Shown here one piece after another: positions 12,207 through 34,411 of a stretch of 64,000 nt of DNA. Every line of letters starts with the position of its first letter. The first letter of the stretch is position 1. Below the pieces are notes generated by a model. The model had not been told where the DNA came from. It did not search any database and saw only the letters and a program-made list of their open reading frames with translations. The DNA lies in the NCBI GenBank assembly GCA_903934295.1, contig CAIZNI010000019.1, positions 1 to 64,000 of the forward strand, given 5' to 3'. This DNA comes from an uncultured beta proteobacterium. GTDB taxonomy: Bacteria; Pseudomonadota; Gammaproteobacteria; Burkholderiales; Burkholderiaceae_E. The position numbers were made by a program, and so were the translations under genes.

Positions 12207-12587
12207 ATGAGATTCCTCCCCACACTGGTCCTGGCTGCGGCCTTGCCACTGGCGCTCTGCACCGCCCATGCGGCCGGCCCCGCAGAGACCACCCCACGCC
12301 AGGCCGTCACCGACCTCAAGCCCCTGCTCGCCCGCGCCGCCGCCGAGGGCACCGCCCGCGGCACGCTCACCGGCGCTGGCGCGCAGGCCATCGCGCGCCG
12401 CTTCCAGACCGATGCCCCGATCGAGATCGACGTGCGCCGCATCCAGCGCCTGCCCCAGCCCGGCTGCGGCCGGCTGGAGGTGACCACCCGGCAGCGCGAC
12501 GTGACCCAAGCGGGCAAGCGTGGCGACCAGGAGATGGTCTACCAGATCAGCTACTGCGCCGACGGCCGCTTCCCGGAGGAACGGTGA
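12207..12587 (+). CDS. Small secreted protein of unknown function in the transfer operon
   Basis: A 126-residue protein with a clear signal peptide (MRFLPTLVLAAALPLALC, then AHA). The mature part is short and beta-rich, with two cysteines (PGCGRLEV and ISYCADG) that could form one disulfide, and a conserved-looking block QTDAPIEIDVRRI. I do not recognise a family. It is placed between traN and traF, overlapping the traF start (GTGA), so it is probably an accessory periplasmic factor of the mating machinery. Confidence 0.75.
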   Translation: MRFLPTLVLAAALPLALCTAHAAGPAETTPRQAVTDLKPLLARAAAEGTARGTLTGAGAQAIARRFQTDAPIEIDVRRIQRLPQPGCGRLEVTTRQRDVTQAGKRGDQEMVYQISYCADGRFPEER

Positions 12588-14874: not shown

Positions 14875-14902
14875 TCCCGAAACCAAGGCACAGACAGCCG
14901 GC

Positions 14903-17848: not shown

Positions 17849-17849
17849 A

Positions 17850-18086
17850 CTACTCGTCGATTCGCGTCTTGCCGGCGCCGATCTCGAGGCTACCGAGACC
17901 GTTTCGCGTCATGCGGCCAGCTGCCTCATCCCACACAAGTGCTTCTAACGGACCGGGCGTCAGTTCGCACGCGTCAGGCCGAAGTACTTCCGCGCCGTCT
18001 TCGGCGGCGATGCCGACGTGGATGGCAGCCCGCACTTGGGTCGCGATACTCGCCATAAAGCTCGACAGCTTGCCGATTCCCGACAT
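17850..18086 (-). CDS. Small protein of unknown function, convergent with traG
   Basis: A 78-residue frame on the minus strand starting MSGIGKLSSFMASIATQVRA and ending at a stop one base from the traG stop. The composition is protein-like (balanced, no antisense-type Arg/Pro bias), and it overlaps no other gene. No membrane segment or known motif is seen. It sits where SXT-like elements carry the exclusion gene eex after traG, but it is too short and lacks a signal or membrane segment, so I do not assign that role. A 37-residue frame ends directly against its ATG. Confidence 0.45.
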   Translation of the reverse strand: MSGIGKLSSFMASIATQVRAAIHVGIAAEDGAEVLRPDACELTPGPLEALVWDEAAGRMTRNGLGSLEIGAGKTRIDE

Positions 18087-18324
18087 TTACCAAACCGCTC
18101 GATTCTTGGAAGCCACGCGAGCAATCCTACGCTCGCCGATGATTTGAAACCGTGAGGTTTTTGAACACGTACCTGCAGCAAGGGCGCGCGGCCTGGGCAT
18201 CGGGTGGCTGCCTCCTCACGCAGCGGCGACCAGCAGAGTGATTTGCATCGGCGGGGAAAAGCGCTGCGGCAGGTCGACGCGCGGCGCTTCCTGAACTGAG
18301 ACTACAAAGCGACCCACCAGAATA
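18087..18324 (-). other. Intergenic stretch with two tiny minus-strand frames
   Basis: Between the small convergent gene and the defence operon there is no certain gene. Two short minus-strand frames are noticeable. One covers 18087-18200 (37 residues, ATG preceded by a GAGGAGG ribosome-binding site), with its TAA abutting the ATG of the 78-residue gene. The other covers 18216-18317 (33 residues, GTG start). The second reads like protein (VGRFVVSVQEAPRVDLPQRF) and starts 8 bases downstream of the LexA-type box in that direction. They may be a tiny operon or the decayed remains of a longer gene. Confidence 0.3.
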
Positions 18325-18340
18325 CTGTATGCGAATACAG
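18325..18340. promoter_or_regulatory. LexA-type SOS box
   Basis: The 16 bases ctgtatgcgaatacag have the exact CTGT-N8-ACAG form and form a palindrome with flanking A/T (actgtat-gcg-aatacagt). This matches the LexA consensus of gamma- and betaproteobacteria. It lies 94 bases upstream of the ribbon-helix-helix gene that opens the defence operon, and could serve that operon or the small minus-strand frames. Binding is inferred from sequence only. Confidence 0.6.
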
Positions 18341-18379
18341 TTCGCTGGTTGCTGCCGCCGGGGAAAAGCAGGGGAAATC

Positions 18380-18420
18380 TTGCACCGATGTGGTGTAAAG
18401 TGGTGCAACTACGGTACAAC
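18380..18420 (+). promoter_or_regulatory. Phased GGTRYAA repeats, candidate operator of the RHH protein
   Basis: Three adjoining 10-base units, tggtgtaaag, tggtgcaact and acggtacaac (18391-18420), each carry GGT-R/Y-AA at the same phase, one per DNA helical turn. An inverted copy, ttgcacc, lies at 18380-18386. The array ends 14 bases before the start codon of the ribbon-helix-helix gene. Tandem, helically phased half-sites are typical of operators bound by RHH repressors, so autoregulation of the defence operon is likely. Confidence 0.5.
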
Positions 18421-18434
18421 ACTGGGTACGTCCG

Positions 18435-18626
18435 ATGGCACTGGCAGCAAAACAAAGCGCCCCTGCAAAGGAAGGCACGCGCGCTTCGGTGACCTTTCCG
18501 GCAGATCTTTACGCCGAGCTGGAACGCATCGCCGAAGAGAAGAAGGTGTCCGTCGCCTGGGTCGTCCGTGACGCCGTCGAAAAGTACGTCGAGGCGCAGT
18601 ACCCGCTGTTCCGCCGTGAGCAGTGA
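18435..18626 (+). CDS. Ribbon-helix-helix (CopG/Arc-like) DNA-binding protein
   Basis: A 63-residue protein whose core RASVTFPADLYAELERIAEE is a standard RHH pattern: a beta strand (SVTFP), then two helices with the turn KKVSVAWVVRDAVEKYV. Such proteins bind DNA as dimers and usually repress their own operon. It starts immediately downstream of the phased repeats and is 70 bp from the methyltransferase, so it probably controls the defence genes. It could also be an antitoxin-like protein, but no toxin partner is adjacent. Confidence 0.8.
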   Translation: MALAAKQSAPAKEGTRASVTFPADLYAELERIAEEKKVSVAWVVRDAVEKYVEAQYPLFRREQ

Positions 18627-18696
18627 ATGCGGCCATGCAGAACCCGAGAAGGTCCCGCCCCATGATCAATGAGCCTGTACAGGAAGGTGTCGCCCT

Positions 18697-20199
18697 GTGA
18701 CCAAGACTGCACGCGCTATTCGCCAGAAAATCGTCCGCCTGCAGGCGGGGGGCAAGCCTCGGGTACTTGATCTGTTCGCCGGCTGCGGCGGGATCTCGCT
18801 CGGCTTTTCGGCCGCGGGCTTCAGCATTGCAGGCGCTGTCGAGTTCGACCCGGAGGCCGCGGCCTCCCATGGCCGCAACTTCCACGGTGGCAACGCGGCG
18901 CACTCGCAGGCCCGCGACATCACGAAGACCAGCCCAGACCAGCTCGCAAAAGATCTGCAAGCCGGGGCCACCGCAGATGCGTTCGACGTGCTCGTCGGCG
19001 GCCCGCCGTGCCAGGCCTTCGCTCGAGTCGGACGGCCGAAGCTGCGCGAGGTGGACAACCACGCCGAAGCCTTTAAGCACGACCCGCGCGCTCAGCTCTA
19101 CATCGACTATCTGCGCTACGTTGAAGCCTTCGCGCCGCTCGCCGTCGTAGTTGAAAACGTCCCCGACGTGCTGAACCACGGCGGCCAGAACGTCGCCGAG
19201 GAGATCGCCGAAGTCCTGGAAAGCAAGGGCTACATCTGCCGCTACACGCTGCTCAACGCCGCCTTCTATGGCGTGCCGCAGATGCGCGAGCGGATGATTC
19301 TGATCGCGTACCGGCGCGAGGTCGCCGACGCGGTGACATTCCCGGAGCCGACGCACTTCATCGATCTCCCGCCAGGCTATGAGGGCACCCGGTCTGTTGC
19401 CCTCAAGTTCCTCAACAACGAGATCGCCGACGACGCGCACCACTACATCGGCGCGCCGAAGGCCGCACGCTCTCTACCACCCGCCATCACCGCGGAAGAT
19501 GCGCTCGGCGATCTTCCCGCCATCGACGCTCGCAAGCTGCTGAAGAGCGGTGAACTGCGCCGCGGCGCTCGGCGGTTCGACGCGCCCATGCCATACGGCA
19601 AGGATCCTCATACGGCCTATGCCAGGCTGATGCGGACATGGCCGGGCTTCGAGGCGCCGAAGGCCCTGACCGACCACGTCATCCGCTACCTGCCGCGCGA
19701 CTATCCGCTGTTCGCCCGCATGAATCCCGGCGACCAGTACCCGCAGGCCCACGAGCACGCCATGGAAATGTTCGAGCAGCACCTGGATCTGCTGGCGAAA
19801 CAAGGTATCAAGGTCAAGCCCGGCTCGCGGGAGTACGAAGAGATCAAGGCATCGATCGTGCCGCCGTACGACGTGGGCAAGTTCCCGAACAAGTGGCGCA
19901 AGATGTGGCGCGATCAGCCGGCGCGCACGCTGATGGCGCACCTTGGCAAGGACAGCTACAGCCACATCCACTACGACAGCAAGCAGGCCCGCACGATCTC
20001 TGTGCGCGAGGCCGCGCGTCTGCACTCGTTTCCCGACGGCTTCGTCTTCTGCGGAACGATGAACCCGGCCTTCCGCCAGATCGGCAATGCCGTCCCGCCG
20101 TTGCTGGCGAAGGCGGTGGCCATGCAGATCATGAAGACGCTCAAACAAGCAGAGAGGGAGACGGCTGATGAGCCTGCAAGAGCGGCAGCGGCAGTTTGA
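18697..20199 (+). CDS. dcm: DNA cytosine-5 methyltransferase
   Basis: A 500-residue C5 methyltransferase with motifs in order: motif I DLFAGCGGISLGF (residues 25-37), motif IV GGPPCQAFARVG with catalytic Cys105, motif VI VVENVPD, and motifs IX-X at the end (RTISVREAARLHSFPDGF, then QIGNAVPPLLA). A long target-recognition region lies between about 210 and 400. It uses a GTG start after a ribosome-binding-like ggaagg. Its 3' end overlaps the McrB-like gene by 32 bp. In context it most likely protects the host site against the McrB/McrC-like nuclease, as in LlaJI and BsuMI systems. The target site cannot be read from sequence. Confidence 0.93.
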   Translation: MTKTARAIRQKIVRLQAGGKPRVLDLFAGCGGISLGFSAAGFSIAGAVEFDPEAAASHGRNFHGGNAAHSQARDITKTSPDQLAKDLQAGATADAFDVLVGGPPCQAFARVGRPKLREVDNHAEAFKHDPRAQLYIDYLRYVEAFAPLAVVVENVPDVLNHGGQNVAEEIAEVLESKGYICRYTLLNAAFYGVPQMRERMILIAYRREVADAVTFPEPTHFIDLPPGYEGTRSVALKFLNNEIADDAHHYIGAPKAARSLPPAITAEDALGDLPAIDARKLLKSGELRRGARRFDAPMPYGKDPHTAYARLMRTWPGFEAPKALTDHVIRYLPRDYPLFARMNPGDQYPQAHEHAMEMFEQHLDLLAKQGIKVKPGSREYEEIKASIVPPYDVGKFPNKWRKMWRDQPARTLMAHLGKDSYSHIHYDSKQARTISVREAARLHSFPDGFVFCGTMNPAFRQIGNAVPPLLAKAVAMQIMKTLKQAERETADEPARAAAAV

Positions 20200-21823
20200 G
20201 GCGAAAGTCGCGTCGTCTCCGGGCATCAGCCCGGAAGCACGCATCGCCCGCAACTTCGGTTTTTCCAACAGCGCCCGGATCATCGAAGGCGGACTGTTCG
20301 CGTGCACCAACAATCTTGAGGCTTACTCGGAAAAGCTGGCCGCTGGAACCACGCAGCCGCTGACGCAGTTCATCTTCCTGTGCGTCCTCACCTTCCCGCC
20401 GCAGGACGAGGTCTATTTCGCAATCACGGTCAGCGGCGACGCCGACCGGGTTAACACCGGACTGGTCAAGCTCTACAAGGAAGGCAAGCAGCGCAACGAC
20501 GAGCTGATCGCGGCCGGCAAGAAGCCTGGCAGCATCAGCAATAACGTCAAGTTCTACATCACGTCGGACAGCCGCATCTACTTCCACAACAACGACTTTC
20601 AGGAAACCCTGCGGCCGGAGCCCGGCAAGGCCCCGCTCGACGAACAGTGCATGGCGCGGATCGACTCCGTGCTCTTCGCCATCTGGCCGCCATCGGCGTC
20701 GGCGCGCCGCAGCCTGCTGGCGCGTGAGTTCGTCGGCTACCTCGGCAACCAGGTCGGACGCGAGAAGGTCCACGAGCTGCCTGTCTGGACGGACGCTGAG
20801 ACGCTTGGCGCGTCGATGCGCCGCATGCCGGCCACCATCCCCGTTGCAGACATCGAAGCGGCTGTCGCGAAGCTCGGCGGTCACTACCCGAACGGCGAAG
20901 TGCGGCGCTTCCATGCCGCGCTCAACTTCCTCAGCCACAAGCACTTCGTGATCCTGTCGGGCCTGTCTGGCACTGGCAAGACGCAGCTGGCGCTGAAGTA
21001 CGCCCGCGCCGTCCACGGCCTCACGAACGACGCGGCCGATCCGCTGCTGTTCGTCTGCCCCGTGCGACCGGAATGGACCGACCCGACGGGGCTGACGGGC
21101 TACAACGACGTGCTGACAAGCCGCTACGTCGTGCCGACTTTCCTTGCCGCGGTGCTGGTGGCGACGGCGCACCGGGACTCCCCGGTTTTTGTCGTGCTCG
21201 ATGAGATGAACCTAGCGCGCGTCGAGTATTACTTCTCCGACGTGCTCTCCTGCATCGAGACGGGCAGCGCGCTGCAGCTGCACTCCAACGACGTGCCGCT
21301 GGAAGGCACTACAGGAACGGTAATCCGCGGCGAGCTGCCGCTGCCGCCCAATCTCTTCATCATCGGCACAATCAACGTCGACGATACGACCAACCCGGTC
21401 AGCGACAAGGTGCTGGACCGGGCCTCGGTAATCGACATGTCAGCCGACGATGTGCCCGGGTTCCTCGCCTCGCTGGAGACGCGCTTTGCGGACCTGAAGG
21501 ACGCGCGGGCAGCCGCGGGCGCGAAGCTGACGGAGATCCACGGCCTGATGCAGGCCCACAACCTCGGCTTCGGCTATCGCGTCATCGAAGAGTGCCTGCG
21601 CTATCACGCTTTCGACGCGCAGCATCTTAAGAACGACGCGGCAGACGTAACCGACCAGTTGCTGGTCCAGAAGATTCTGATCAAGCTGCGCGGCGCCGAA
21701 CGCCAACGTGCGCTGCTCACCGAGCTCGACAAGGCCTGCGACGGCATGCCCCGGTCGCGGGCCTTTGTTCGCCGGCTGCTGAGCGACCTCGACGAGTTCG
21801 GCTCCTTCCAGGCGATGCGGTGA
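20168..21823 (+). CDS. McrB-like AAA+ restriction subunit
   Basis: A 551-residue protein with a McrB-family AAA+ motor in the C-terminal half: Walker A GLSGTGKT at residues 265-272, a tract VCPVRPEWTDPTGLTGYND typical of McrB, Walker B VVLDEMNLARVEYYFSDVL with D345-E346, and the sensor/GTP-specificity-like stretch GTINVDDTTNPVSDKVLDRA. The first about 150 residues do not look like the methyl-binding DUF3578 of E. coli McrB and may be a different DNA-recognition domain. It overlaps dcm and is 3 bp from the McrC-like gene. Co-occurrence with a methyltransferase points to a LlaJI-like role: DNA translocation coupled to cleavage at unmethylated sites. Confidence 0.85.
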   Translation: MSLQERQRQFEAKVASSPGISPEARIARNFGFSNSARIIEGGLFACTNNLEAYSEKLAAGTTQPLTQFIFLCVLTFPPQDEVYFAITVSGDADRVNTGLVKLYKEGKQRNDELIAAGKKPGSISNNVKFYITSDSRIYFHNNDFQETLRPEPGKAPLDEQCMARIDSVLFAIWPPSASARRSLLAREFVGYLGNQVGREKVHELPVWTDAETLGASMRRMPATIPVADIEAAVAKLGGHYPNGEVRRFHAALNFLSHKHFVILSGLSGTGKTQLALKYARAVHGLTNDAADPLLFVCPVRPEWTDPTGLTGYNDVLTSRYVVPTFLAAVLVATAHRDSPVFVVLDEMNLARVEYYFSDVLSCIETGSALQLHSNDVPLEGTTGTVIRGELPLPPNLFIIGTINVDDTTNPVSDKVLDRASVIDMSADDVPGFLASLETRFADLKDARAAAGAKLTEIHGLMQAHNLGFGYRVIEECLRYHAFDAQHLKNDAADVTDQLLVQKILIKLRGAERQRALLTELDKACDGMPRSRAFVRRLLSDLDEFGSFQAMR

Positions 21824-21826
21824 ACC

Positions 21827-23485
21827 GTGACGGCACTCTTCATCCGGGCGGAAGGCGGCGGACCTGCATGGCAGGTGTGGCCCATGCCGGATGCGGTGCC
21901 GCCGGGTGTCGTGCGGGAAGGGGCCTCCTACCTCTTTGAGCTCCGCGACAGCGACGATGCGTTCGCCGCCGACCTGCTGATCGACGACGTGCCGGCCGAA
22001 GCGCTGCGCTCGCGTGAGCCCCGCATGGCCCGCTGGCGCTGGCAGCCTGGCTTTCATGCCGGCATGGTCGAGGCCGCGCTGCGCGTGCCCGGGACCGGAA
22101 CGCGACGCTTCGAGATCACGACCGATCCAGACCTGCGCAAGCTGACTCGCGGCGACTTCGACGCGATGGTCCGCGAGGTGCTGGAGGACACCTTCGCGCT
22201 CTTCTCGCTGAGCGCGTTCCGCAAGGGGATCGCGCGGCAGCCGGGCAATCGGCCACCTCCGCTGGCGCGCCTGGAGTTTCTGCGGTCACGGGCCGGCGAG
22301 ATTGCCGAAACCATCGCGGCGATCGGCCGGGCACCGCGCCACTTCCTTCGCGCGGAGGAAATGACCGTGCCTGCGCATCGTGCCACACGCGCGACTGGCG
22401 CCGAGATCATCAAGTCCTTCCGGTCGGGTGCGATCCGCCATGAGACCGTTAGCCCGTCGCGTCTGCCGCCGGCCCTGGGCGGCCGGCTCCCCGCGCAGAT
22501 CACGCTGCGCCAGCGCCGCAACAGCTTGGACATTCCCGAGCATCGGCAGATGAAGGCCTGCCTGCAATCCTGGTCGGCCTGGCTGGGCGGCGTGGCCGAA
22601 GTGCTGGCGCGCACGGGCGTGGCGGACGATCCTGAGACTACGACCATGGCCGGCGCCTGGGCCGTCCGGACGCGGCAGGTCGCTCGGCGCCTCGGCGAGG
22701 CCGCGGCGACGCCGTTCCTGGCCGAAGCGGGCGAGGGGCTGCCCCAGCTCCACATGTCGTCGCTGTTCCGCCGCGATCCCACCTACCGGCGCTTCTACCG
22801 GCTCTGGCAGGACATGAATCTCGGCTTGGCGGCGCTGTTCGGCGACTTCCTCAACATGCCGCTGGCCCGCACCTACGAGCTGTACGAACTGTGGTGCTTC
22901 CTGCGCCTGCTGCGCGCCGCGTCCGAGGAGTACGGGCCCGCGGGCGTTGACTTGAGTAGCCTGTTCCTCAGCGATGCCGCGGGCGGCGTGACTGTCGCGG
23001 CGGGCGCAGTGACCGTGCCGGTCGGCGGCAGCAACGTGCTGTGCTTTCAGCGGCAGTACCGCGAATACTGGATCGAGCCCGACGGCCAGGGCAGCTTCAG
23101 CCGCACGATGGTCCCCGATGTCGTGTTCGCCGGCGATGCCCCGGACGGCGCCGGCCGCCGCGTCATCGTGCTGGACGCGAAGTACCGCATCAACGACGGG
23201 CTCAACGACGCGCTGAACTCGATCCACACCTACCGCGACGCGCTGGTGCGGGAGGTGGGCGGAAACGACACCGAAGGCATCGTCACGGCAGCCTATCTTC
23301 TCACTCCGCACATGCCGGACCTGGCTGCCGACTTCAAGGCGACGCCCGTCCCCGGGCGCCTGTTCCATCCGCAGTACCGCGAGAAGTTCCGCTTCGGTGC
23401 CGTCACGCTGCGCCCCGGCATGAGCCTAGCCGAGCTGCGGGCCTGCCTGAAAACCATCGTCGCCGACGCGGCCGGTGCGCCATGA
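21827..23485 (+). CDS. McrC-like nuclease subunit (DUF2357 and PD-(D/E)XK)
   Basis: A 552-residue partner of the McrB-like ATPase. The N-terminal and middle parts look like DUF2357; the C-terminal third carries a PD-(D/E)XK nuclease core: an Asp in MVPDVVFAGD, then RRVIVLDAKYRIND with the D-x-K triad, followed by a helix NSIHTYRDAL. A McrC-like protein is needed for DNA cleavage in McrBC and LlaJI-type enzymes. The GTG start lies 3 bp after the McrB-like stop; its own stop overlaps the vsr ATG. Confidence 0.82.
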   Translation: MTALFIRAEGGGPAWQVWPMPDAVPPGVVREGASYLFELRDSDDAFAADLLIDDVPAEALRSREPRMARWRWQPGFHAGMVEAALRVPGTGTRRFEITTDPDLRKLTRGDFDAMVREVLEDTFALFSLSAFRKGIARQPGNRPPPLARLEFLRSRAGEIAETIAAIGRAPRHFLRAEEMTVPAHRATRATGAEIIKSFRSGAIRHETVSPSRLPPALGGRLPAQITLRQRRNSLDIPEHRQMKACLQSWSAWLGGVAEVLARTGVADDPETTTMAGAWAVRTRQVARRLGEAAATPFLAEAGEGLPQLHMSSLFRRDPTYRRFYRLWQDMNLGLAALFGDFLNMPLARTYELYELWCFLRLLRAASEEYGPAGVDLSSLFLSDAAGGVTVAAGAVTVPVGGSNVLCFQRQYREYWIEPDGQGSFSRTMVPDVVFAGDAPDGAGRRVIVLDAKYRINDGLNDALNSIHTYRDALVREVGGNDTEGIVTAAYLLTPHMPDLAADFKATPVPGRLFHPQYREKFRFGAVTLRPGMSLAELRACLKTIVADAAGAP

Positions 23486-23967
23486 CCGATGTGCTCACCG
23501 CGGCCCAGCGCCAGCTCAACATGAGCCGCATCCGCTGGCGCGATACCAAGCCCGAAATGCTGGTCCGCCAGGGGCTGCATGCGCGCGGCATGCGCTATCG
23601 GCTGCATGACCGGAAGCTGCCCGGCCGCCCCGATCTCGTATTCCCGCGCTATGGTGCCGTCGTCTTCGTTCACGGGTGCTTCTGGCATGCGCATGGCTGC
23701 GCTCTGTCCAAGGTGCCGGCCACTCGCCGGGACTTCTGGAAGCAGAAACTGGAAGGCAACGCCGCGCGCGATCGGAACGCAGTTGCTGCCCTGCGCGCAG
23801 ACGGCTGGCGGGTCCTGGTGATCTGGGAGTGCGCGCTGCGCGGGCCCGCCCGGTGGGCCGAAATCGAAGTCCTGAATATGGCCAGCTCATGGATTCGGCA
23901 CGCATCGCCTGGCCCGTTGGAGATCGCGGGCAAGAATGCTAGAAGAACGGACAGGGACAACGAGTAA
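23482..23967 (+). CDS. vsr: Vsr, very short patch repair DNA nickase
   Basis: A 161-residue Vsr-family endonuclease. The typical start NMSRIRWRDTKPEMLVRQGL, the catalytic Asp51 in GRPDLVFPRYGAVVFVHGCF, and the zinc-binding/active segment HGCFWHAHGC (64-73) are all present. Vsr nicks T:G mismatches that arise when 5-methylcytosine deaminates, so it accompanies C5 methyltransferases. The ATG at 23482 overlaps the previous stop (ATGA); it matches the normal family start. The last 20 residues are basic and may be a non-conserved tail. Confidence 0.93.
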   Translation: MTDVLTAAQRQLNMSRIRWRDTKPEMLVRQGLHARGMRYRLHDRKLPGRPDLVFPRYGAVVFVHGCFWHAHGCALSKVPATRRDFWKQKLEGNAARDRNAVAALRADGWRVLVIWECALRGPARWAEIEVLNMASSWIRHASPGPLEIAGKNARRTDRDNE

Positions 23968-23970
23968 ACG

Positions 23971-26121
23971 ATGACCTCAGGCACGCTCCACCCGCTACGC
24001 GCGCGAAGTCACCTCCTGCAGCTGCTTGGGGAAGAGCTGATCGGCGACGACCGGCTGGCCATCTTCGAGCTGGTCAAGAACGGGTATGACGCGGATGCCA
24101 ATGAGGTCGAGATCACCGTAAGCCTCGCGGCGCGCGCGCAGAAGTCAATCGTCGTCCAGGACGCAGGTACCGGCATGACGCTGGACGACATCACCGGCAA
24201 GTGGCTCGAGCTGGCGACCGACTCCAGGCGAAGAGATCGCGCCGTCAGGACGAAGCGGTTCCGCCGCCTTGCGCTTGGCGAGAAAGGTGTGGGGCGCATC
24301 GCCTCGTTCAAGCTTGGACGCTATGTGACGCTCACGACCCGCTCGGCCGGGCACCCTGAGTACGAAGCGACGATTGACTGGGACAAGCTGCTTGAGCAGG
24401 GCCCGTATCTTGAGGACCTGCACGTGCGGGTCCGCGAGAACGAGGAACCGAAGTTTTTCTCCGGAAGGGCCACGGGCACACGCATCGCTATCTCCGGTCT
24501 GCGGCGGGAGCAGTGGACGCGCGGCGACCTGCGCAAGCTGTACCGGCTGGTCACGTCGCTGGCGAGCCCCTTCAAGACGCCCGATCAGTTCGTGGTCAAG
24601 TTCAATGCGCCGGGTCGGGAAGGTGACCTGAAGGACCTCATCGCTCCGAACAACTTCCTGGAGCTCGCCGTCTGGAAGTTCGCCTTCAGCCTGGATGGGC
24701 AGACTTTCAGCTGGAACTACACCTTCAACCCGCCACATTGGAAAAGCGTCAAACCGCGCACCGACGAAAACAAGAAGGACCGCCTTCTGCTGACGCCGGC
24801 CGTTGATCCGGACGGCATTAAGCGCCGGCCTTCAGCGGCGCCGGAAACGCTGTTAATGACGGGGGACGAACTGGATGGAATCGGCCCGATCGAAGGCCGC
24901 ATCTACGCCTACTACCGACGCTCCGAAGTGTTGAATGCCACGGGCAGCTCAACGCAGGTCAGGTCGTGGCTCGACGATCAGACCGGGGTTCGGGTGTACC
25001 GCGATGGCGTCCGCGTGTTCACTTACGGTGAGCGGAACGATGACTGGCTGGGCCTCAATGTGCGGCGTATCAACACGCCGGCGGGCAAGCTGGGAACGAA
25101 CTCCGTCGTGTCCGCAATCCACCTTGAACTGGACGAAAGCAGCGGTCTGCGCGAAAAGACCAACCGCGAGGGCTTCGATCAGAACGGCGCCTATGAACGT
25201 CTGCGGCGGGTGATCCTCAGCGTCTTTGAGCATCTGGAACGGCTGCATGCCGACGATCGCAAGATGCTCGACGATGTCATTAAGGGCACGGTCGATGAAC
25301 AGCCGATGCGTTTCACCGAGGCCATGGATCACCTACGCACCGGCTTGAAATCGAAGAAGCTCGATCAGAGCTTCGCCAAGGACATTGACGCCATCGAACG
25401 CGAATTCGTGCAACTGCGCGACGTGATGACTAACGCCGGCGTTGCCGGCCTGAATCTGGCAGTCATCTTCCATGAAGTCGAGCGGGAGGTTGACTCTCTT
25501 GCGACCGCGCTGGATCGCGGTCTGGACCAGGAACGCCTGCGTGAGCAGATTGAGCACCTACATCAGCTGCTTCAGGGCTTCGCCCCGTTGCTGCGCAAGA
25601 ACACGACGCGGTCGATCTTCGCCAGCGGCGTGGTCCGCGCAGCGCTGATGACGCGCGAGCCGCGCTACAAGCACCACAAGGTGACCCTGTCGGCGCCGAT
25701 CCTGCAGAAGGAGCAACCTGACTTCAAGATTCGTGGCGCGTCTAACCTCATCGCTGGTGCGCTCGGCAATCTGCTGGACAACGCCCAGTTCTGGGCCCGA
25801 TACAGAAAGGAACGCGATGAACGCCCGGCGCCTGCGTCGGTGCTCGTCGCCACGGACTGGGACGACAAGTCGAACTCCGGCTTCATCGCCGTCGTTGACA
25901 ACGGTCCGGGCTTCTCGATCCCGCTGGATCGCGCGGCCGAAGCTTTCCACACGACCAGGCCGGGAGGCATGGGGCTCGGGCTTTACTTCGCGAAACACGT
26001 CATGGATCAGTGCGGCGGCGAGCTGACGATTCACTCCGCCGACGAGCTCCGCGACGAGATCGATATTCCGAAGGCGTTCGACGGTGCCGCCGTCGTCCTG
26101 CGGTTTGGGGAGAGCAAATAG
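23971..26121 (+). CDS. Double-GHKL ATPase: MORC/Hsp90-like domain fused to a histidine-kinase-like module
   Basis: A 716-residue protein with two ATP-binding GHKL domains. The first (residues about 1-200) has N box ELVKNGYDADAN (N37), G1 VQDAGTGM (D64) and G2 GEKGVGRIA, in the style of Hsp90, MutL and MORC proteins. The second (about 590-710) has N box LGNLLDNAQF (N600, N604), G1 VVDNGPGF (D643) and a GGMGLGLYFAKHVM lid, as in sensor kinases. Between them, VIFHEVEREVDSL with H501-E502 resembles a kinase phosphoacceptor box. No membrane segment is seen. The next gene encodes a receiver-like domain, so phosphotransfer from H501 is likely. Prokaryotic MORC-like (paraMORC) proteins are known to associate with restriction systems. 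Confidence 0.85.
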   Translation: MTSGTLHPLRARSHLLQLLGEELIGDDRLAIFELVKNGYDADANEVEITVSLAARAQKSIVVQDAGTGMTLDDITGKWLELATDSRRRDRAVRTKRFRRLALGEKGVGRIASFKLGRYVTLTTRSAGHPEYEATIDWDKLLEQGPYLEDLHVRVRENEEPKFFSGRATGTRIAISGLRREQWTRGDLRKLYRLVTSLASPFKTPDQFVVKFNAPGREGDLKDLIAPNNFLELAVWKFAFSLDGQTFSWNYTFNPPHWKSVKPRTDENKKDRLLLTPAVDPDGIKRRPSAAPETLLMTGDELDGIGPIEGRIYAYYRRSEVLNATGSSTQVRSWLDDQTGVRVYRDGVRVFTYGERNDDWLGLNVRRINTPAGKLGTNSVVSAIHLELDESSGLREKTNREGFDQNGAYERLRRVILSVFEHLERLHADDRKMLDDVIKGTVDEQPMRFTEAMDHLRTGLKSKKLDQSFAKDIDAIEREFVQLRDVMTNAGVAGLNLAVIFHEVEREVDSLATALDRGLDQERLREQIEHLHQLLQGFAPLLRKNTTRSIFASGVVRAALMTREPRYKHHKVTLSAPILQKEQPDFKIRGASNLIAGALGNLLDNAQFWARYRKERDERPAPASVLVATDWDDKSNSGFIAVVDNGPGFSIPLDRAAEAFHTTRPGGMGLGLYFAKHVMDQCGGELTIHSADELRDEIDIPKAFDGAAVVLRFGESK

Positions 26122-27560
26122 TGTTCGGTCCAATAAGGGCAGTCGCGGTAGACGATGAGCCTGGCCATCTTCTCTCGATCACAACCGGCCTATCGACCAT
26201 CGGCATCCCCTGCATGGGGTACTGGTACGACCGCGACACCAGCGAGCTGCGCCCGCCGCCGCCAGACGGCGGGTTGCCCCACCTTCGGCTTCTGTTCACC
26301 GATCTGAACCTTGCCGAGCTTGGCGGCGTTCCAGATACCTCAGTTCTTTGGGCCGCCGTGGTCAGCGTGCTCAAGCAGATCGTGTCGAAGGACAGCGGTC
26401 CTTACCTTCTCGTGTTCTGGACCCGTGTCGGCGCGAAGGCGGCCGAGGTCAAGGAAATGCTGTACGCGCGCGCGGAGCAGCTTGAAGGTGTCCCGTGCCC
26501 GATTGATGTCCTTGAGATGTCGAAGGCGCAGTTCCTTGTCGAGCCTCCGAGAGGCAAGGACTTCGACGAAGGCCTGCGCGAGTTCTACGCGGCGCTGCAC
26601 GCGAACATTGACAGGCTGAAGGAAGCGGTGGGCGCCGCTGTCGCGACCAATGCGACCCTGAACGCCGTCTCGGCATGGGAGACGCGCGCCGCTGAAGCGG
26701 CAGCCCTGGCGGTGAACGAGGTTCACAGGTGCGCTAGCACCGATGAGCAGGACCCGGCGAAGATCGGCGAGTCACTGACGCGAGTCGTGGCAAAGATCGC
26801 AGCCGCTGCGGCCGGCGGCGCTGCAGCGCAGGCCGAACCGGCGCGTGCCGTCGATGCGGGGATGCTTGACATCCTGGTGGACCAGTTCGGTTCTTCAGTC
26901 GATGCGCCGGAATACAAGGCAATGGTTGCCGCCGCCATCGGACCGACGCTCGACGGCGAAATCACGTTCGGCGACAACGTTGCAATGCACGCCGAGCTGA
27001 ATACCTTCTTCCACGTAGACCGGCAGATTGCGACGGCCAGATCATGGGACCGGGGGGTCGTCGTCCCTGCACGGCCGCCAATGAACGGCAACGTACTCGG
27101 CTTCAATGCTCGCGAGCTGCTGGGCAGCGAGTTCCTGTTTCCGCCGGAGTTGTTTCCGGAAGCCGAGCGCGATGGCGTCCGGGCGCTGCTGCAGCAGTTC
27201 AGGCTGGCTGCGGAGGTCGTGCTGATCGAGTTGGGCGCGGACTGTGACCACGCGCAGGATCACGACAGGACGCGGCGCTATCTTGTGGGGCTTGAGGTTC
27301 CTCAACAGTTCATACGCCTCGCGAAGGCCCCCGACAACGGCGGTCTTCGAAACGGAGCGCTGGAAATGCTGGGGCCCTGGAAGATCAACGATGTTCCGAC
27401 CTACCTGCTTGTCTCATGCCGGCGGTTCTGGACCTGGCAGCGCCGGGAGCCGCCGCTCGTGGACGCAGTTCGATACCGGCTGCGTGCCTCCGTGGTGGAC
27501 AAGCTGCTTCACCGCTATTCGGCCTGGAGCAGTCGTCCCGGCATCATCGAATTCAGATGA
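26121..27560 (+). CDS. Receiver-domain protein, presumed partner of the GHKL kinase
   Basis: A 479-residue protein with an N-terminal receiver-like domain keeping all key positions: acidic pair in AVAVDDEPG (D11-D12), phosphoacceptor D61 in LLFTDLNL, T101 in LLVFWTRVG, and K135 in VLEMSKAQF. The remaining about 340 residues have no recognised DNA-binding motif; one Ala-rich helical region lies at about 205-245. The GTG start overlaps the last base of the kinase-like gene stop, so the two are coupled. It most likely relays a signal to the downstream nuclease/helicase rather than acting as a transcription factor. Confidence 0.75.
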   Translation: MFGPIRAVAVDDEPGHLLSITTGLSTIGIPCMGYWYDRDTSELRPPPPDGGLPHLRLLFTDLNLAELGGVPDTSVLWAAVVSVLKQIVSKDSGPYLLVFWTRVGAKAAEVKEMLYARAEQLEGVPCPIDVLEMSKAQFLVEPPRGKDFDEGLREFYAALHANIDRLKEAVGAAVATNATLNAVSAWETRAAEAAALAVNEVHRCASTDEQDPAKIGESLTRVVAKIAAAAAGGAAAQAEPARAVDAGMLDILVDQFGSSVDAPEYKAMVAAAIGPTLDGEITFGDNVAMHAELNTFFHVDRQIATARSWDRGVVVPARPPMNGNVLGFNARELLGSEFLFPPELFPEAERDGVRALLQQFRLAAEVVLIELGADCDHAQDHDRTRRYLVGLEVPQQFIRLAKAPDNGGLRNGALEMLGPWKINDVPTYLLVSCRRFWTWQRREPPLVDAVRYRLRASVVDKLLHRYSAWSSRPGIIEFR

Positions 27561-27571
27561 ATTGATCCGCC

Positions 27572-29356
27572 ATGGAGCTGCCGAAAGAGAACGGGCCTGC
27601 GACCACGAAGCCAGCTGCCGCTCCCGCCATCTATCACCTCGCCATAGACCGCTTTCGCGGCATCAAGAGCCTGCGCTGGGCGCCGGCACCGGGCGTAAAT
27701 GTCATCCTTGGCGGCGGCGACGTCGGGAAGACAACCATCCTCGACGCCATCGGCCTGCTGCTCAGTCCGACCAATGCCACGGTCGTATCGGATACGGACT
27801 ACTACCTGCGCAGGGACGAAGATGAGTTCGTCATCGAAGCCATCATCGCGTTGCCGCCCGGCAGCGGCATCAGTCAGTTGACCAGGCCAGCATGGCCCTG
27901 GAACTGGGACGGCACGCAGGCGCTGGTTCCCGACCACAGTGACGATGGTGCACCGGCGGGCGAGCCTGTCTACCGGCTGCGGGTCCGCGGAACCAGTGAC
28001 CTTGAATTGACCTATGAAATTGTCCAGCCCAATGGTTCGCCGGACAGCCTGCCTGTTGCGCTGCGCAGGGCTATAGGTCTTGTCCGGCTAAGCGGCGATG
28101 ATCGCAACGACCGCGATCTTCGTCTGGTCCAGGGATCGGCTCTCGACCGGCTGCTCTCTGACAAGGGGCTGCGCTCAAGGATGGCCAGTGAGCTCGCGAA
28201 GAGCGACGTGCGCAGCGAACTGGGTGAGGAGGCGCGGATAGCGCTCGGTGCGCTGGACACTGTATTCAAGCTGGAGAAGCTTCCGGGCGACCTGGACATC
28301 GCCATCACCGGCGGTCAGGGTGCGTCGGTTGCATCGCTCGTGGGCCTGACGGCCAAGCGGGAAACGGTTCAGCTGCCGCTGGCCAGCTGGGGCGCCGGCA
28401 CACGCCGGCTGTCTGCGCTGACCATCGCTGAACAGATTCAGGGTGAAGCACCAGTCACCCTGGTCGATGAAGTCGAGAGGGGCCTGGAGCCATACCGGCA
28501 GCGTCTGCTCATGGCGAAGCTGCAAGCTGGCTCATCTCAGGTTTTCATCACCACGCACAGCCCGGCCGCAGTGTCGGCGGCATCGCTGGCCCGGCTCTGG
28601 TACGTCGACCATGCCGGCGCAATTGGTCCGCTGGACGGGAAGAAGGTCGACGCCCTGCGCGCCGATGACCCGGAGGCGTTTCTTGCGCGCCTGACGATCG
28701 TCGCGGAAGGTGCAACGGAGGTCGGCTTCGTCAGTGTTCTGCTTGAGCGGGCACTGGGAACGTCACTGCAGGCGCACGGAATCCACATAGCCGATGGCGA
28801 CGGGCACGAGTCAACTATCGGAATACTCGAAGCTCTGGCCGACGGTGGTTTGAGCTTCGGGGGTTTCGCCGACGACGAACAGAAGCACCCCGACCGCTGG
28901 GCAGCGCTGCACAGGCGCCTAGGCACACTGCTCTTCCGGTGGAAGTCCGGCGACATCGAATCCAACATCATTGGGGCAGTCGCCGAGCACCAGCTGGAGA
29001 GATTGCTTAGCGACCCGGCTGGCGAAAAGACCGGGTACCGTCTTCGCACGCTTGCGGACCGGCTGGGCATTTCTGAGAAGGAGTTCGCGCAGCTGCAGGC
29101 CAGGGCCGGCGAGGGGTTCCGCGCCCTGATGATCGAGGCGGCACACGGTAACGTACCCGTTGGCAAGGACGCTCTGAAGAAGGAGTACAAGAATCACGCC
29201 AAGACGTGGTTCAAGAGCGTGGCCGGCGGGCGGGAGATCGCGGACAAGGTCTTTACGCTCGGGCTGTGGCCGGAACTGAAGGCAGACCTTCTGCCGTTCT
29301 GCAATGCAGTGCGAACTGCCGCGCAGCTAGAGCCGCTTGACGACCTCGCGCCGTGA
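27572..29356 (+). CDS. OLD-family ATPase/TOPRIM nuclease (GajA-like)
   Basis: A 594-residue OLD-family protein. The N-terminal ABC-type ATPase has Walker A LGGGDVGKTT (K53), Walker B VTLVDEVERGLEP (D299-E300) and the H-loop ITTHSPAAV. The C-terminal half is TOPRIM-like, beginning IVAEGATEVGF with Glu379 and followed by acidic motifs such as GFADDE. A TOPRIM OLD nuclease directly followed by a UvrD-like helicase gene (GTGA overlap) is the arrangement of Gabija. It lies 11 bp after the receiver gene. It could be an effector that cleaves DNA when released from ATP inhibition, as described for GajA; activation by the phosphorelay is inference. Confidence 0.82.
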   Translation: MELPKENGPATTKPAAAPAIYHLAIDRFRGIKSLRWAPAPGVNVILGGGDVGKTTILDAIGLLLSPTNATVVSDTDYYLRRDEDEFVIEAIIALPPGSGISQLTRPAWPWNWDGTQALVPDHSDDGAPAGEPVYRLRVRGTSDLELTYEIVQPNGSPDSLPVALRRAIGLVRLSGDDRNDRDLRLVQGSALDRLLSDKGLRSRMASELAKSDVRSELGEEARIALGALDTVFKLEKLPGDLDIAITGGQGASVASLVGLTAKRETVQLPLASWGAGTRRLSALTIAEQIQGEAPVTLVDEVERGLEPYRQRLLMAKLQAGSSQVFITTHSPAAVSAASLARLWYVDHAGAIGPLDGKKVDALRADDPEAFLARLTIVAEGATEVGFVSVLLERALGTSLQAHGIHIADGDGHESTIGILEALADGGLSFGGFADDEQKHPDRWAALHRRLGTLLFRWKSGDIESNIIGAVAEHQLERLLSDPAGEKTGYRLRTLADRLGISEKEFAQLQARAGEGFRALMIEAAHGNVPVGKDALKKEYKNHAKTWFKSVAGGREIADKVFTLGLWPELKADLLPFCNAVRTAAQLEPLDDLAP

Positions 29357-29481
29357 GCGACGATAGTGTCAGCGCGGCCTTGCGGTCGGACGCGCAGCTT
29401 GTCGTCGTTGAGGCCCCGGCGGGTTGCGGCAAGACGCACCAGGGCGCGGACTATGCGCGCGAAATCGCTCTTGCGGCTCGT
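29353..29481 (+). pseudogene. UvrD-like helicase (GajB-like), only the N-terminal start remains
   Basis: The GTG at 29353 overlaps the OLD-family stop. The first about 43 residues (SAALRSDAQLVVVEAPAGCG, then KT and HQGADYAREIALAAR) contain a Walker A APAGCGKT typical of the UvrD/Rep/PcrA helicase start. At about 29,480 similarity stops and an IS3-type transposase end begins in another frame. The open frame happens to continue to 29982 but the later part is not helicase. The remaining several hundred codons of a helicase are absent from the window, so the gene is broken. Confidence 0.7.
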
Positions 29482-29632
29482 TCGGACCGACCAACTGCAT
29501 TACGTCACCCGAGCGCAGGCACGATTGGATATCGTCGACTGGATCGAGGGCTTCTACAATCGATTCAGACGGCATTCCTCGATCGGCTATCAGACGTCGG
29601 TAGGCAGGGAACTCGGCCACAAGGCCCCGTAG
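29482..29632 (+). mobile_element. IS3-family transposase remnant (C-terminal end)
   Basis: In a frame shifted from the helicase, about 50 residues match the end of an IS3-family OrfB (DDE) transposase: VTRAQARLDIVDWIEGFYNR, then FRRHSSIGYQT, stopping at TAG 29630-29632. This pattern (ATRAEAR..IEGFYN..RRHS.LGY) is characteristic of the IS3 family. Neither the catalytic DDE region nor clear terminal repeats are present, so this is a scar left after an insertion and deletion. The left boundary is approximate. Confidence 0.8.
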
Positions 29633-29639
29633 GCAGGTG

Positions 29640-29982
29640 TACGCGGAATCGAGGCAAGGTCAAAGCCTGGCTGCTTGCTCTGACGACCAGAGAGTTCGAG
29701 GAGTGGGTTTCGTCGGAGATCGAGAAGTGGTTCGAGTCTCCGCCCGACTGGGCATTCGAAGACGACTACCTTCCGCAGAGCGGTACGGCGCAAGGTGCCG
29801 CCATGGAGTTCTTCCAGTCGATGGATGTCGACCAGCTTGAGACGCTCGGCGTCGAGGTGGTCGAGGGCGAACACCCCGGCAGCACGTACTACGCTGCGGA
29901 GCTGCGAAACGACATCGACCAGGCAAACCGAGCAGCACAACAAGCCGGGATATCCGTTCGATTCGTCGCTGCCAAGAACTGA
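29640..29982 (+). pseudogene. 3' end of an unknown gene after the IS remnant
   Basis: About 110 residues read as real protein: LLALTTREFEEWVSSEIEKW, an acidic middle with DWAFEDDYLP, and a C-terminal block ELRNDIDQANRAAQQAGISV. No family is recognised. The frame has no good start of its own after the IS scar, and probably lost its 5' end in the same event. It may be the end of a further gene of the defence operon. An internal ATG exists at about 29803 but lacks a convincing ribosome-binding site. Confidence 0.45.
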
Positions 29983-30092
29983 CCTGACCCATCCCGCCGG
30001 GCGCCCGCGCTTATCCACGGCCGCGCGATCGGCGCCTCTCACGCAAGACTCGCGCGGCGGTGGGTAAGCCGCCTGAGTCTGCCCTCACCCGT

Positions 30093-30113
30093 GTCGTCAG
30101 CACTGCTGACGAC
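30093..30113. repeat. Perfect inverted repeat, 9-bp arms
   Basis: GTCGTCAGC, a three-base loop (act), then GCTGACGAC. The arm word GTCGTCA recurs in the larger palindrome at 30471-30509. It is not followed by a T run, so it is unlikely to be a terminator. Confidence 0.75.
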
Positions 30114-30470
30114 CAACGCACCCGGGGTCAGCCTGACCGCCGCCACTGCGGTTGCAGCCTGAACACACCTGGCGCAGCATCCCGCCCATCAACCGCTGGC
30201 TGAGTCAGCCCGCTTGATGCCCGTCACCGCATCGCCCAGCCCGCTTCGGCGGGTGCCCCCGCCGGCCTGATCTCCTGCAACCCGGCAGCCGCAAGGCCTG
30301 GAGATACGCGTCCGAGGTCGGCCTCGCCGACATCCCCTGCCCCAGCCTGGCCGAACAGCCCTGCGTGCGTTACCTGCCCCAACAGGGCGGCGACTTGCGC
30401 GCCACGGCCGGCATCGCGCCCTGCTGCAACCTTGGCGGCGCCCTGCCGCGACCTGCTGCGCCAACCGACA

Positions 30471-30509
30471 GCGTCGTCACTACGCGGCTCCAGCCGGTAG
30501 TGACGACGC
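30471..30509. repeat. Perfect inverted repeat, 13-bp arms
   Basis: GCGTCGTCACTAC at 30471-30483 and its exact complement GTAGTGACGACGC at 30497-30509, separated by 13 bases that are themselves partly self-complementary (gcggctccagccg: cggct/agccg). No T run follows. Arms this long are rare by chance and suggest a protein-binding or single-strand hairpin function, for example an origin or recombination site. Confidence 0.85.
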
Positions 30510-30977
30510 GCACGCAGCCCCAGCACGCCCCGGCGTACCCGGGCAATCGCCGGGCTGTCGCAAGTGACGGACCCGCGTGACGGGCTCCGCCGCGCCCTCC
30601 CCGGCCCGCGAAAGCGGCCACCGGAGCGACGTTGACGGTCGCCGACGACCGCCAGCCGCCTGCGCCAGCAGGCACCGTCGACCTGCGCACCGCCCTGCGG
30701 TGCATCCCCTGAGCCCAGGGCATGGGCTCGAGCCGACGGACCGACTTGCCGCAGCAAGCGCCGTCGGGGCCAACGCCGCGTGCCGCGGCGGCCAGCAGCA
30801 AGAACTCGGCACAAGACGGGAGTGGTGTCCCGTGTCCCTCGTGGTTCCCGTTGCGCTCAGGCGCTCGGGACGGACAGAAACACTTACCAGACCGACTTCA
30901 CACCAGCGACAGCGAACCCGCCCGCCCCCCAGGGGCAACCAACCGATCCGACAACGGAGACCGCCAGCAGCAACCGG

Positions 30978-31844
30978 ATGCGCGACCTGAACTACCAGCT
31001 CAAGCAGCTCTGCCACCGCAACCGCGACGGCAGCTTCGCCACGCAGCGCGACCGCGAGCGTGTGCTCGACCTCGTGGCCAACCAGCTCCAGGAGGCGGGC
31101 TTCCGACACCTGGGCGCCACGAGCCTGAAGCCCAAGCATGTGGACGGCCTGGTGGCGCGCTGGCAGGCCGAGGGCCTGGCCATCGGCACCATCAAGAACC
31201 GCATGGCCGAGTTGCGCTGGTGGGCCGAGAAGATCGGCAAGAGCAACGTCATCGCCCGCGACAACCACCACTACGGCATCGGCAACCGGCAGCACGTCAC
31301 CAACGTCAGCAAGGCGCGGGAACTTCAGGGCAGCGACCTCGCCCGGGTGACCGACCCGTACACCGCGATGTCGCTGCGGCTGCAGGCCGCCTTCGGGCTA
31401 CGGCGCGAGGAGTCCATCAAGATCCGTCCGGAATGGGCTGACCGGGGCAACGTGCTAGCACTGAAGGAAACCTGGACCAAGGGCGGTCGAGCGCGCGAGG
31501 TACCTGTCCGCAATGCGGAGCAGCGGCAACTGCTCGATGAGGCGAAGGCTCTGGCCGGCAAGGGCAGCCTCATCCCGGCGGACAAGACCTACGCCGAGCA
31601 GTTGCGCCGCTTCGAGCACCAGTGCGCCGCCGCCGGCATCCACCGGGTGCACGGGTTCCGGCACCAGTATGCGCAGCTGCGTTACCGTGAATTGACGGGT
31701 TGGGCAGCACCTGCAGCCGGCGGGCCGCGGTCACGGGAGCTGACGGCCGCGCAGAAGGCGATTGATCGGGAGGCCCGGCTTACGATCAGCGCGGAGCTGG
31801 GGCATGAGAGGGAGCAGGTGACGGCGGTTTACTTGGGGCGATGA
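30978..31844 (+). CDS. Tyrosine recombinase of the Integrase_1 (PF12835-like) type
   Basis: A 288-residue tyrosine recombinase often found inside ICEs. Start at ATG 30978, MRDLNYQLKQLCHRNRDGSF, which is the usual start of this family; the frame continues further upstream without protein character. An N-terminal SAM-like domain (about 1-100) precedes the catalytic domain: FGLRREESIKI (Arg), HGFRHQYAQLRY (His-x-x-Arg) and ELGHEREQVTAVYLGR (His and Tyr close to the C-terminus). All catalytic residues are present. It sits about 10 kb from the guaA-side integrase, so its role is probably internal, such as dimer resolution or the integration of a module. Confidence 0.85.
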   Translation: MRDLNYQLKQLCHRNRDGSFATQRDRERVLDLVANQLQEAGFRHLGATSLKPKHVDGLVARWQAEGLAIGTIKNRMAELRWWAEKIGKSNVIARDNHHYGIGNRQHVTNVSKARELQGSDLARVTDPYTAMSLRLQAAFGLRREESIKIRPEWADRGNVLALKETWTKGGRAREVPVRNAEQRQLLDEAKALAGKGSLIPADKTYAEQLRRFEHQCAAAGIHRVHGFRHQYAQLRYRELTGWAAPAAGGPRSRELTAAQKAIDREARLTISAELGHEREQVTAVYLGR

Positions 31845-32283
31845 CTGCAATCGACCCATAGCTGAAGTTCAGCAGCCTTGACAGCTGCCTTTCGGCCCTC
31901 CGCCATTTCCGCCTGGAGCTTGATCTCAACGCAAGAAGGCCGACTATGACGCTGCGCGTACGTTGCTGCCTCGCCATGGATGGCAATGCTGCGCCAGAGC
32001 CGAGCCAGCCCGGTACGGCAAGGCGCTGGCAACACAGGAGCGACTCCGCCACGATCCTGTTGGCAAGGAAGCAGTCGTTCCTGCTTGCGTCGATGCAGAC
32101 CTGTGCTTGCAGGTCGAAGGGCGGCAGCACACGCCCCCTTGGAATCACCCGCGTGACTGGGAATCGGAGTCATGGCTTCCGGGGTCATCTTGCAAATGCG
32201 CATCCGTTATCATTAAGCGCATCGCACAAGGGCCTCGGCACTTGTCTCGTCTCTTTCCACTTTCGATCTGCCGAGGTTCCCCC
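31845..32283. other. Gap of about 440 bp before the TonB receptor
   Basis: No convincing gene is seen. Minus-strand frames (for example around 31829-32203) include one stretch with normal composition, VEIKLQAEMAEGRKAAVKAA, which may be the remnant of a gene, but no start, family or partner supports it. The right end holds the candidate metal-regulator operator upstream of the receptor. The left part may also contain a recombination site for the neighbouring recombinase. Confidence 0.4.
32198..32222 (+). promoter_or_regulatory. Candidate Zur/Fur-type operator upstream of the TonB receptor
   Basis: An A+T-rich core, cgttatcattaagcg (32205-32219), contains TTATCATTA, similar to the GATAAT/ATTATC half-sites of Fur-family operators, and is flanked by two GCGCAT copies (32198-32203 and 32217-32222). 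It is 62 bases upstream of the receptor start in otherwise G+C-rich DNA, and a Zur-like repressor is encoded in the same cluster. The match to any Zur consensus is partial. Confidence 0.35.
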
Positions 32284-34410: not shown

Positions 34411-34411
34411 A

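Follow-up and report, generated by a model that had tools for sequence, protein, structure and literature searches.

A two-component-like GHKL–receiver pair beside a LlaJI/BsuMI-like restriction cassette and a broken Gabija in a betaproteobacterial contig

Background

Among described systems, the closest to the gene pair considered here is the combination of HEF_HK (PF19191) and Response_reg_2 (PF19192), presented in the accessible text of its 2021 description (Bellieny-Rabelo 2021, PMC8011034) as a two-component-like pair tied to C5-methylases. A pair of the same general kind, namely a protein with two GHKL-type ATPase regions (the ‘GHKL protein’) followed by a putative receiver, lies within a tightly packed block of nine genes in an uncultured beta proteobacterium (contig CAIZNI010000019.1 of assembly GCA_903934295.1, of which the 64,000-nucleotide forward-strand stretch from position 1 was analysed and is termed ‘the window’). 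The block consists of three modules: a restriction cassette, rhh-dcm-mcrB-mcrC-vsr (module 1), the GHKL–receiver pair (module 2) and a broken Gabija (module 3).

BsuMI combines an McrB-like motor and an McrC-like nuclease with a C5 methyltransferase, and LlaJI has two methyltransferases; the cassette in the window is set apart from these systems by a single methyltransferase, together with Vsr, a ribbon-helix-helix (RHH) protein and the GHKL–receiver pair. Its likeness to LlaJI, as that system is presented in the accessible part of its description (PMC1459862), lies in the association of an McrB-like motor and an McrC-like PD-(D/E)XK nuclease with a C5 methyltransferase. In the available portions of Bell et al. 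2024 (PMC11090510), many McrBC systems of the ‘NxD clade’ are reported beside DNA methyltransferases, often sharing an operon with two-component genes as well; this methyltransferase/two-component group is mentioned there in passing, its analysis being deferred. Precedents are thus in print both for a similar pair with C5-methylases (Bellieny-Rabelo 2021) and for methylase-linked McrBC with two-component genes (Bell 2024). An N-terminal GHKL clamp in a restriction or defence context, as in the window, also figures in the accessible passages on paraMORC (Iyer 2008, PMC2292703) and VcSduA (PMC12137116), from which the window protein appears to differ in having a histidine kinase rather than a nuclease at its C-terminus, and a receiver as its partner. 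No experimental study of the pair stood out among the titles listed in a literature search that had most subscription papers outside its coverage, and a search on the two Pfam families HEF_HK and Response_reg_2 brought up only two papers.

The reading favoured here, with moderate confidence, is that the block is a three-module cargo in which module 2 serves as a restriction accessory, modules 1 and 2 form one seven-gene system and the Gabija is broken.

Genomic company of the GHKL–receiver pair

Genome loci of the pair (designated, where one must be told apart, by L and a number) were taken from a GHKL profile search as the best 80 of at least 482 relatives, and these 80 span Proteobacteria, Bacteroidota, Actinobacteria, Spirochaetes, Acidobacteria, Chlorobi and others. 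In every one of them the GHKL gene is immediately followed, on its own strand, by a receiver open reading frame (ORF); the gap never exceeds 85 bp, and five of the ORFs have fewer than 380 aa. Homologues of dcm were found in the examined flanks of 71 loci; where the flanks reach 9 kb or more to either side, 46 of 49 loci have one. The corresponding count for vsr is 48 of the 80. The nearest dcm is no more than 300 bp from the pair in 44 of the 71 loci, being upstream and co-directional in 25 of these 44 and downstream and convergent in 16. Among 17 loci from a viral collection, dcm and the receiver were each present in 16; dcm and vsr lay within 10 kb of the pair at all four plasmid loci examined (from seven plasmid records with receiver matches); and dcm stood beside the pair at L109, one of two further genomes that carry it. 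L144, a repeat of L010, was not counted.

Module 2 tends to occur together with METHYLTRANSFERASES. Set against 16 loci of gajA, none of which has dcm in the stretches examined, the enrichment of dcm at pair loci is strong (Fisher p ~1e-12), this being a comparison that covers clustering in defence islands only in part. Distances among GHKL proteins correlate with those among receivers (r=0.92, n=76; above all 2000 permutations) and with those among Dcm proteins (r=0.35, n=71; permutation maximum 0.08 in 2000), host phylogeny not being removed from either figure.

The nucleases found in this company vary. Among 85 neighbouring proteins (84 of 138, drawn from 65 loci, plus the NOV_C-domain gene product of L007 added by hand), the families matched were AspBHI-N/Mrr (5), EcoRII-C (4), MvaI_BcnI (3), AIPR (2), DUF4420 (2), HNH_2 (2) and NOV_C (2, one of them the hand-picked L007 gene). 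McrB and McrC were not found in the examined flanks of the 80 genome pairs or the 17 viral-collection loci, and neither was GajA, apart from weak AAA matches of 20, 31 and 40 bits in L018, L032 and L080, which were not counted as GajA (the window protein scores 871).

The first-pass annotation had suggested that the nine genes might act as one system, and had proposed conserved co-occurrence as the check. What recurs is the pair with dcm, often with vsr as well; mcrBC and GajA do not recur with it. From the other side, neither dcm nor the pair was found around any of 16 GajA loci (the sole related signal being a 24-bit GHKL match in L128), and the pair was not found within the stretches examined around four of four plasmid loci that carry dcm, mcrB, mcrC and vsr. 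Because co-occurrence is lacking in the examined flanks of pair, cassette and GajA loci, the unity of the nine genes was rejected.

Anatomy and affinities of the pair

The GHKL protein is predicted, from its structural model (predicted local distance difference test score, pLDDT, 83.5), to join an N-terminal MORC/Hsp90-like ATPase and transducer to the C-terminal DHp and catalytic domains of a histidine kinase; the structure matches the ATPase modules of Hsp90/TRAP1, SMCHD1 and MORC2, and the kinases HK853 and CpxA. An alignment of 62 rows (61 of the 80 genome genes plus the window) leaves E33, N37, D64, G66, G68, H501, E502, N600, N604, D643, G645, G647, G668 and G670 invariant, with both ATP sites and the H-box histidine conserved. 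For the receivers, 70 rows were aligned, those of 11 of the 80 loci having been omitted as partial, mis-started or to save rows (a further set comprised 54 loci plus the window). In the REC domain, D11, D61 and K135 are present in all 70, D12 in 67 and T/S101 in 63. As far as residues can indicate, the pair has the parts of a two-component system, with the H-box histidine and the N and G boxes conserved on one side and the Asp-Asp, Asp, Thr/Ser and Lys of REC on the other.

The remainder of the receiver is less easily placed. Its C-terminal domain keeps G312 and C375-D376 in 70 of 70 sequences, R472 in 69 and G474 in 68. The model of the whole receiver is a confident one (pLDDT 92.1); the receiver’s fold matches in the PDB are weak, the best (E 6e-3) being to a response regulator, with flavodoxin-like reductases among the first. 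Pfam recognised no DNA-binding domain in the receiver and, across the 70 receivers, matched DUF2608 in four and Response_reg in one, all weakly; PADLOC matched PD-Lambda-5_A alone, in one of 70 at 1.5e-4. A Foldseek search of BFVD returned a phage endoribonuclease (probability 1.00, target template modelling (TM) score 0.66, E 0.027) and a PemK/MazF protein (probability 0.99, target TM 0.72, E 0.11), matches which, the search giving no alignment ranges, presumably concern the C-terminal domain.

Homology of that domain to MazF/PemK was considered and drew no support from sequence: a profile comparison with ten PemK-family proteins gave a probability of 1.7% (controls 0.2-1.3%), Pfam found PemK in none of the 70 receivers, and a PDB sequence search of the receiver gave no match up to E 10. 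A MazF-like output of the receiver is therefore to be taken as a bold lead, with weak fold matches and no sequence support behind it.

The likeness to HEF_HK/Response_reg_2, to judge from the accessible 2021 text, extends to the succession of HATPase_c_3, a His-containing DHp and HATPase_c, to the adjoining REC-like gene and to the C5-methylase and Vsr neighbours. Profile comparison gave 100% between window-family GHKL proteins and ten HEF_HK proteins, and 5.7% between the receivers of the two groups, which can hardly be compared. Direct membership of PF19191 or PF19192 was tried and rejected (none of 62 GHKL proteins or 70 receivers at E 0.1, and none in the window’s genome at E 1). The window-type GHKL protein is about 715 aa long, as against about 1000 aa for HEF_HK; HEF_HK proteins score 165-213 bits on the GHKL profile, as against 868 and 919 for two proteins of the window type scored alongside them; and a tree places the two in separate groups (support 0.93). 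PF19192 matches 10 of 398 genomes of the phylum, none of them among the three that carry a window-type pair, and dcm lies in the examined stretch of all ten PF19192 loci (L099-L108), in agreement with the 2021 association. On sequence comparison, the window-type pair is an unlisted sister clade to HEF_HK/Response_reg_2 that those Pfam models miss.

Closest loci and likely history

The window’s GHKL protein is 82% identical to that of L007 (a metagenome-assembled genome of Lysobacterales) and about 54% identical to those of L008 (Lysobacter sp. cf310) and L009 (Nitrotoga). In L008, rhh, dcm, vsr, the GHKL gene and the receiver gene lie on one strand, with a gene of about 370 aa on the other strand beside dcm; in L007, vsr, a 365-aa NOV_C-domain gene and dcm are divergent from the pair. 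In both, the gene of about 370 aa beside dcm sits where the window has mcrBC. The nearest Dcm to that of the window, among the 80 loci, are likewise those of L008 (77% over aligned columns) and L007 (67%), and Dcm proteins of rhizobial mcrBC-type cassettes score as high on the window’s Dcm (802-804 bits, against 777 for L008). The simplest history would be an exchange of nucleases, either through insertion of mcrBC into a block of the form rhh-dcm-vsr-GHKL-receiver or through gain of the pair by one of the form rhh-dcm-mcrBC-vsr. L009 has no visible dcm; its contig ends 1.5 kb past the GHKL gene.

Two of the pair loci have further genes of note. In L003 (an Agrobacterium plasmid, 7862-20462), the pair, an AbiE pair and a set of vsr, dcm, ATP-binding, Z1, PD-(D/E)XK and AIPR genes adjoin one another, and genes like the L003 set in size and order, a GHKL ATPase included, stand directly before the pair in L009.

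Gene layout, the restriction cassette and the Gabija remnant

The nine genes lie on one strand (Table 1) with the gaps and overlaps first reported for them: a 32-bp overlap of dcm and mcrB, 3 bp between mcrB and mcrC, an ATGA overlap of mcrC and vsr, 3 bp between vsr and the GHKL gene, a 1-bp overlap of GHKL and receiver genes, 11 bp between receiver and gajA, and a GTGA overlap of gajA with the last ORF. The module identities proposed at that stage (LlaJI/BsuMI-like restriction, a paraMORC-like GHKL protein and Gabija) also agree with the domain scans.

Table 1. Features of the nine-gene block, in window coordinates
Feature	Coordinates	Strand	Description
rhh	18435..18626	+	ribbon-helix-helix (CopG-like) regulator, 63 aa; RHH_5 4e-9
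dcm	18697..20199	+	cytosine-5 DNA methyltransferase, 500 aa; DNA_methylase 5e-58
mcrB-like	20168..21823	+	AAA+ (R1-type) restriction subunit; PADLOC PDC-M26A 3e-41; Walker A
mcrC-like	21827..23485	+	DUF2357 4e-14 and PDDEXK_7 1e-12, PD-(D/E)XK nuclease
vsr	23482..23967	+	very-short-patch repair endonuclease; Vsr 1e-30, TIGR00632 1e-43
double-GHKL sensor	23971..26121	+	HATPase_c_3 7e-21, HATPase_c 4e-15
GHKL His501 codon	25471..25473	+	predicted phosphoacceptor, FHEVE H-box
receiver	26121..27560	+	REC, helical region and C-terminal alpha/beta domain; no family match
receiver Asp61 codon	26301..26303	+	predicted phosphoacceptor of REC
gajA (OLD)	27572..29356	+	OLD-family ATPase and TOPRIM nuclease; AAA_21 and OLD-like TOPRIM; PADLOC PDLC04168 7e-75
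gajB remnant (uvrD')	29353..29982	+	209-aa ORF; weak GajB N-terminus, E ~1e-3

By its gene content, module 1 is a LlaJI/BsuMI-like restriction-modification cassette: a C5 methyltransferase is accompanied by McrB-like and McrC-like subunits, in what their packing suggests to be an operon. The McrB-like identity of the PDC-M26A protein rests on alignment with Escherichia coli McrB and relatives, in which the signature reads N-V-D-D in the window, N-T-A-D in E. coli McrB and N-V-D-E or N-I-D-E in four relatives. The N[VI]DE of the four relatives agrees with the signature of the NxD clade (N-x-D followed by E or D; Bell et al. 2024), a clade with which the putative operon of the window shares its methyltransferase and two-component genes; the NVDD of the window may be of the same kind or may be read as NxxD.

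McrC matches occur in eight plasmids, in five of them over at least 80% of the length, and four of these five (L137-L140) were examined. All four hold dcm, mcrB, mcrC and vsr together, and L137, L138 and L140 repeat both the gene order of the window and its 32-bp dcm/mcrB overlap, dcm being divergent in L139. A CopG gene lies upstream of dcm in the two rhizobial cassettes, L137 and L138. Elsewhere, McrC relatives at E 1e-20 were confined, among 340 genomes of the class, to the window’s own genome, none besides the window was found in the viral collection, and megablast of the block against plasmids matched a stretch of vsr only. In L138 (a Rhizobium rhizogenes plasmid, 10398-17647), the cassette is followed by a defence-like set of genes for a UvrD-type helicase, a helicase-related protein, a DUF1998 protein and a NERD-domain protein, and the UvrD-type helicase gene after vsr scores 35 bits on GajB.

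Module 3 is a separate, broken Gabija beside modules 1 and 2. Its gajA matches the PADLOC GajA profile over residues 20-562 of 594, and the gajA-gajB overlap is shared with Gabija; gajB differs in being cut to about its first 79 of some 505 residues. The last gene had been taken at first for a truncated uvrD, and a weak GajB start is indeed present, as a remnant only: the first 55-79 residues match intact GajB, of which three relatives are 504-506 aa long and are matched by the window ORF over their first 55-80 residues alone. No further GajB pieces were found in 29300-31000 at E 1 (blastp and tblastn against the three intact GajB), and the last 129 aa of the ORF have no Pfam or plasmid match.

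GajA relatives occur in 11 of 398 phylum genomes, the window’s included (E 1e-10), as well as in 284 plasmid records (E 1e-20). The 16 GajA loci examined come from the ten other genomes and six of the plasmid records, mostly with 7-9 kb on each side, and GajB adjoins GajA in 15 of them (split in L131, short in L133); in L130, the gajA match is interrupted by a stop codon, with no GajB beside it. Among the eight closest GajA loci compared (the window, L121 and L131-L136), gajB looks broken with gajA open in three, perhaps through selective loss of the helicase, namely the window (29353-29982), L131 (9719-11235, split into two ORFs) and L133 (9737-10609, short, with a Tn3-family transposase adjoining). 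GajA was also considered as the output of the phosphorelay and discarded, since none of the 80 pairs has a GajA within its examined flanks.

Proposed function and alternatives

The likeliest role of module 2 is that of a DNA-state-sensing phosphorelay, accessory to restriction systems based on 5-methylcytosine (5mC), and modules 1 and 2 probably work together as a single system of seven genes whose nuclease has been exchanged. In such a system, Dcm would mark self DNA with 5mC, unmodified DNA would be cut by the McrC-like nuclease and its McrB-like motor, and Vsr would repair T:G mismatches arising from deaminated 5mC, the RHH protein probably governing expression of the cassette. The MORC/Hsp90-like ATPase clamp of the GHKL protein would sense a state of DNA or protein, and the kinase half would phosphorylate its own histidine and hand the phosphate to the receiver aspartate. 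Because no DNA-binding domain was recognised in the receiver, its C-terminal domain would be expected to work through protein contact or as an enzyme.

Several observations weigh against this proposal. A second locus joining mcrBC to the pair was found neither among the 80 genome loci nor among the 17 viral-collection loci, so that the case for co-function of modules 1 and 2 in the window rests on the link to dcm. That link has its own gaps: dcm was not found at nine of the 80 genome loci, three of which (L024, L039, L082) have full flanks, nor was it seen at L110 (the other of the two further genomes) or L151. Neighbourhood counts are inflated by the clustering of restriction systems in defence islands, for which the GajA comparison controls only partly, and host phylogeny may lie behind the GHKL/dcm correlation. 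Genomes with the pair are also rare, it being present in three of 398 phylum genomes (the window’s included), one of 369 class genomes (in a single-protein search) and two of 61 family genomes (by GHKL).

Other explanations account for parts of the same evidence. That the nine genes are transcribed together and act as a single defence system is suggested by their tight and uninterrupted packing on the same strand, with 11 bp between receiver and gajA, and by the lack of any promoter-like site in 18000-30800 in an uninformative promoter and terminator scan (only 1.5 sites are expected from shuffles); with GajA (beyond weak AAA matches), McrB and McrC missing beside the genome and viral-collection pairs, modules 1 and 3 each occurring without the others, and gajB reduced to a remnant, this explanation is very improbable. 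A role for the pair in controlling expression of the restriction system, as a two-component regulator of transcription, is unlikely, if less remote. Restriction systems often need expression control, the catalytic residues of kinase and REC are of the standard kind, and a methyltransferase gene is nearby in 71 of 80 loci; on the other hand, Pfam finds no DNA-binding domain in the receiver, an RHH regulator is already present, and the receiver’s weak fold matches (best E 6e-3) are mostly receiver- or flavodoxin-like among the matches listed.

A somewhat more doubtful alternative would have the pair act as a guard, in which the MORC-like clamp senses failure or bypass of restriction and the receiver’s C-terminal domain, perhaps of a MazF/PemK-like RNase fold, arrests growth. 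The endoribonuclease and PemK/MazF matches of high Foldseek probability (1.00 and 0.99) and the invariant G312 and C375-D376, with R472 and G474 nearly so (69 and 68 of 70), speak for a guard, and against it stand fold E-values of 0.027 and 0.11, none below 0.001, a PemK profile score near the controls, and the lack of PemK in the 70 receivers by Pfam or of any PDB sequence match to E 10. Slightly more speculative still is a generalisation by which a taxonomically broad but rare and unlisted clade of MORC-clamp kinases watches 5mC restriction of any nuclease type, such that failure or lost self-modification would switch receiver phosphorylation (on or off) and a MazF-like effector would stop growth.

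Were that generalisation true, methylation state would feed into classical two-component signalling.

What recurs across phyla, alongside cytosine-methylating restriction systems of varying nuclease, is a signalling pair whose kinase and receiver residues are intact and whose clade is missed by Pfam models built for such a pair; the question of whether a restriction system reports DNA state via a phosphorelay, and to what end, is thereby made testable. Tight packing by itself is poor evidence for one system, taking in here a broken Gabija.

Surrounding element

The block is probably cargo of an F-type conjugative or integrative element, because conjugation genes of F type (TrbI-like, DsbC-like, TraC, TraU, TraF, TraH and TraG) lie upstream at 910-17848 and an integrase gene lies downstream at 30780-31844. 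Past the integrase, the region 31963-36570 holds a TonB-dependent receptor-like ORF (31963-34410) and an ABC-type ATPase ORF (34412-35137), both assigned by sequence only, followed by an ABC-2/DUF3526 membrane protein.

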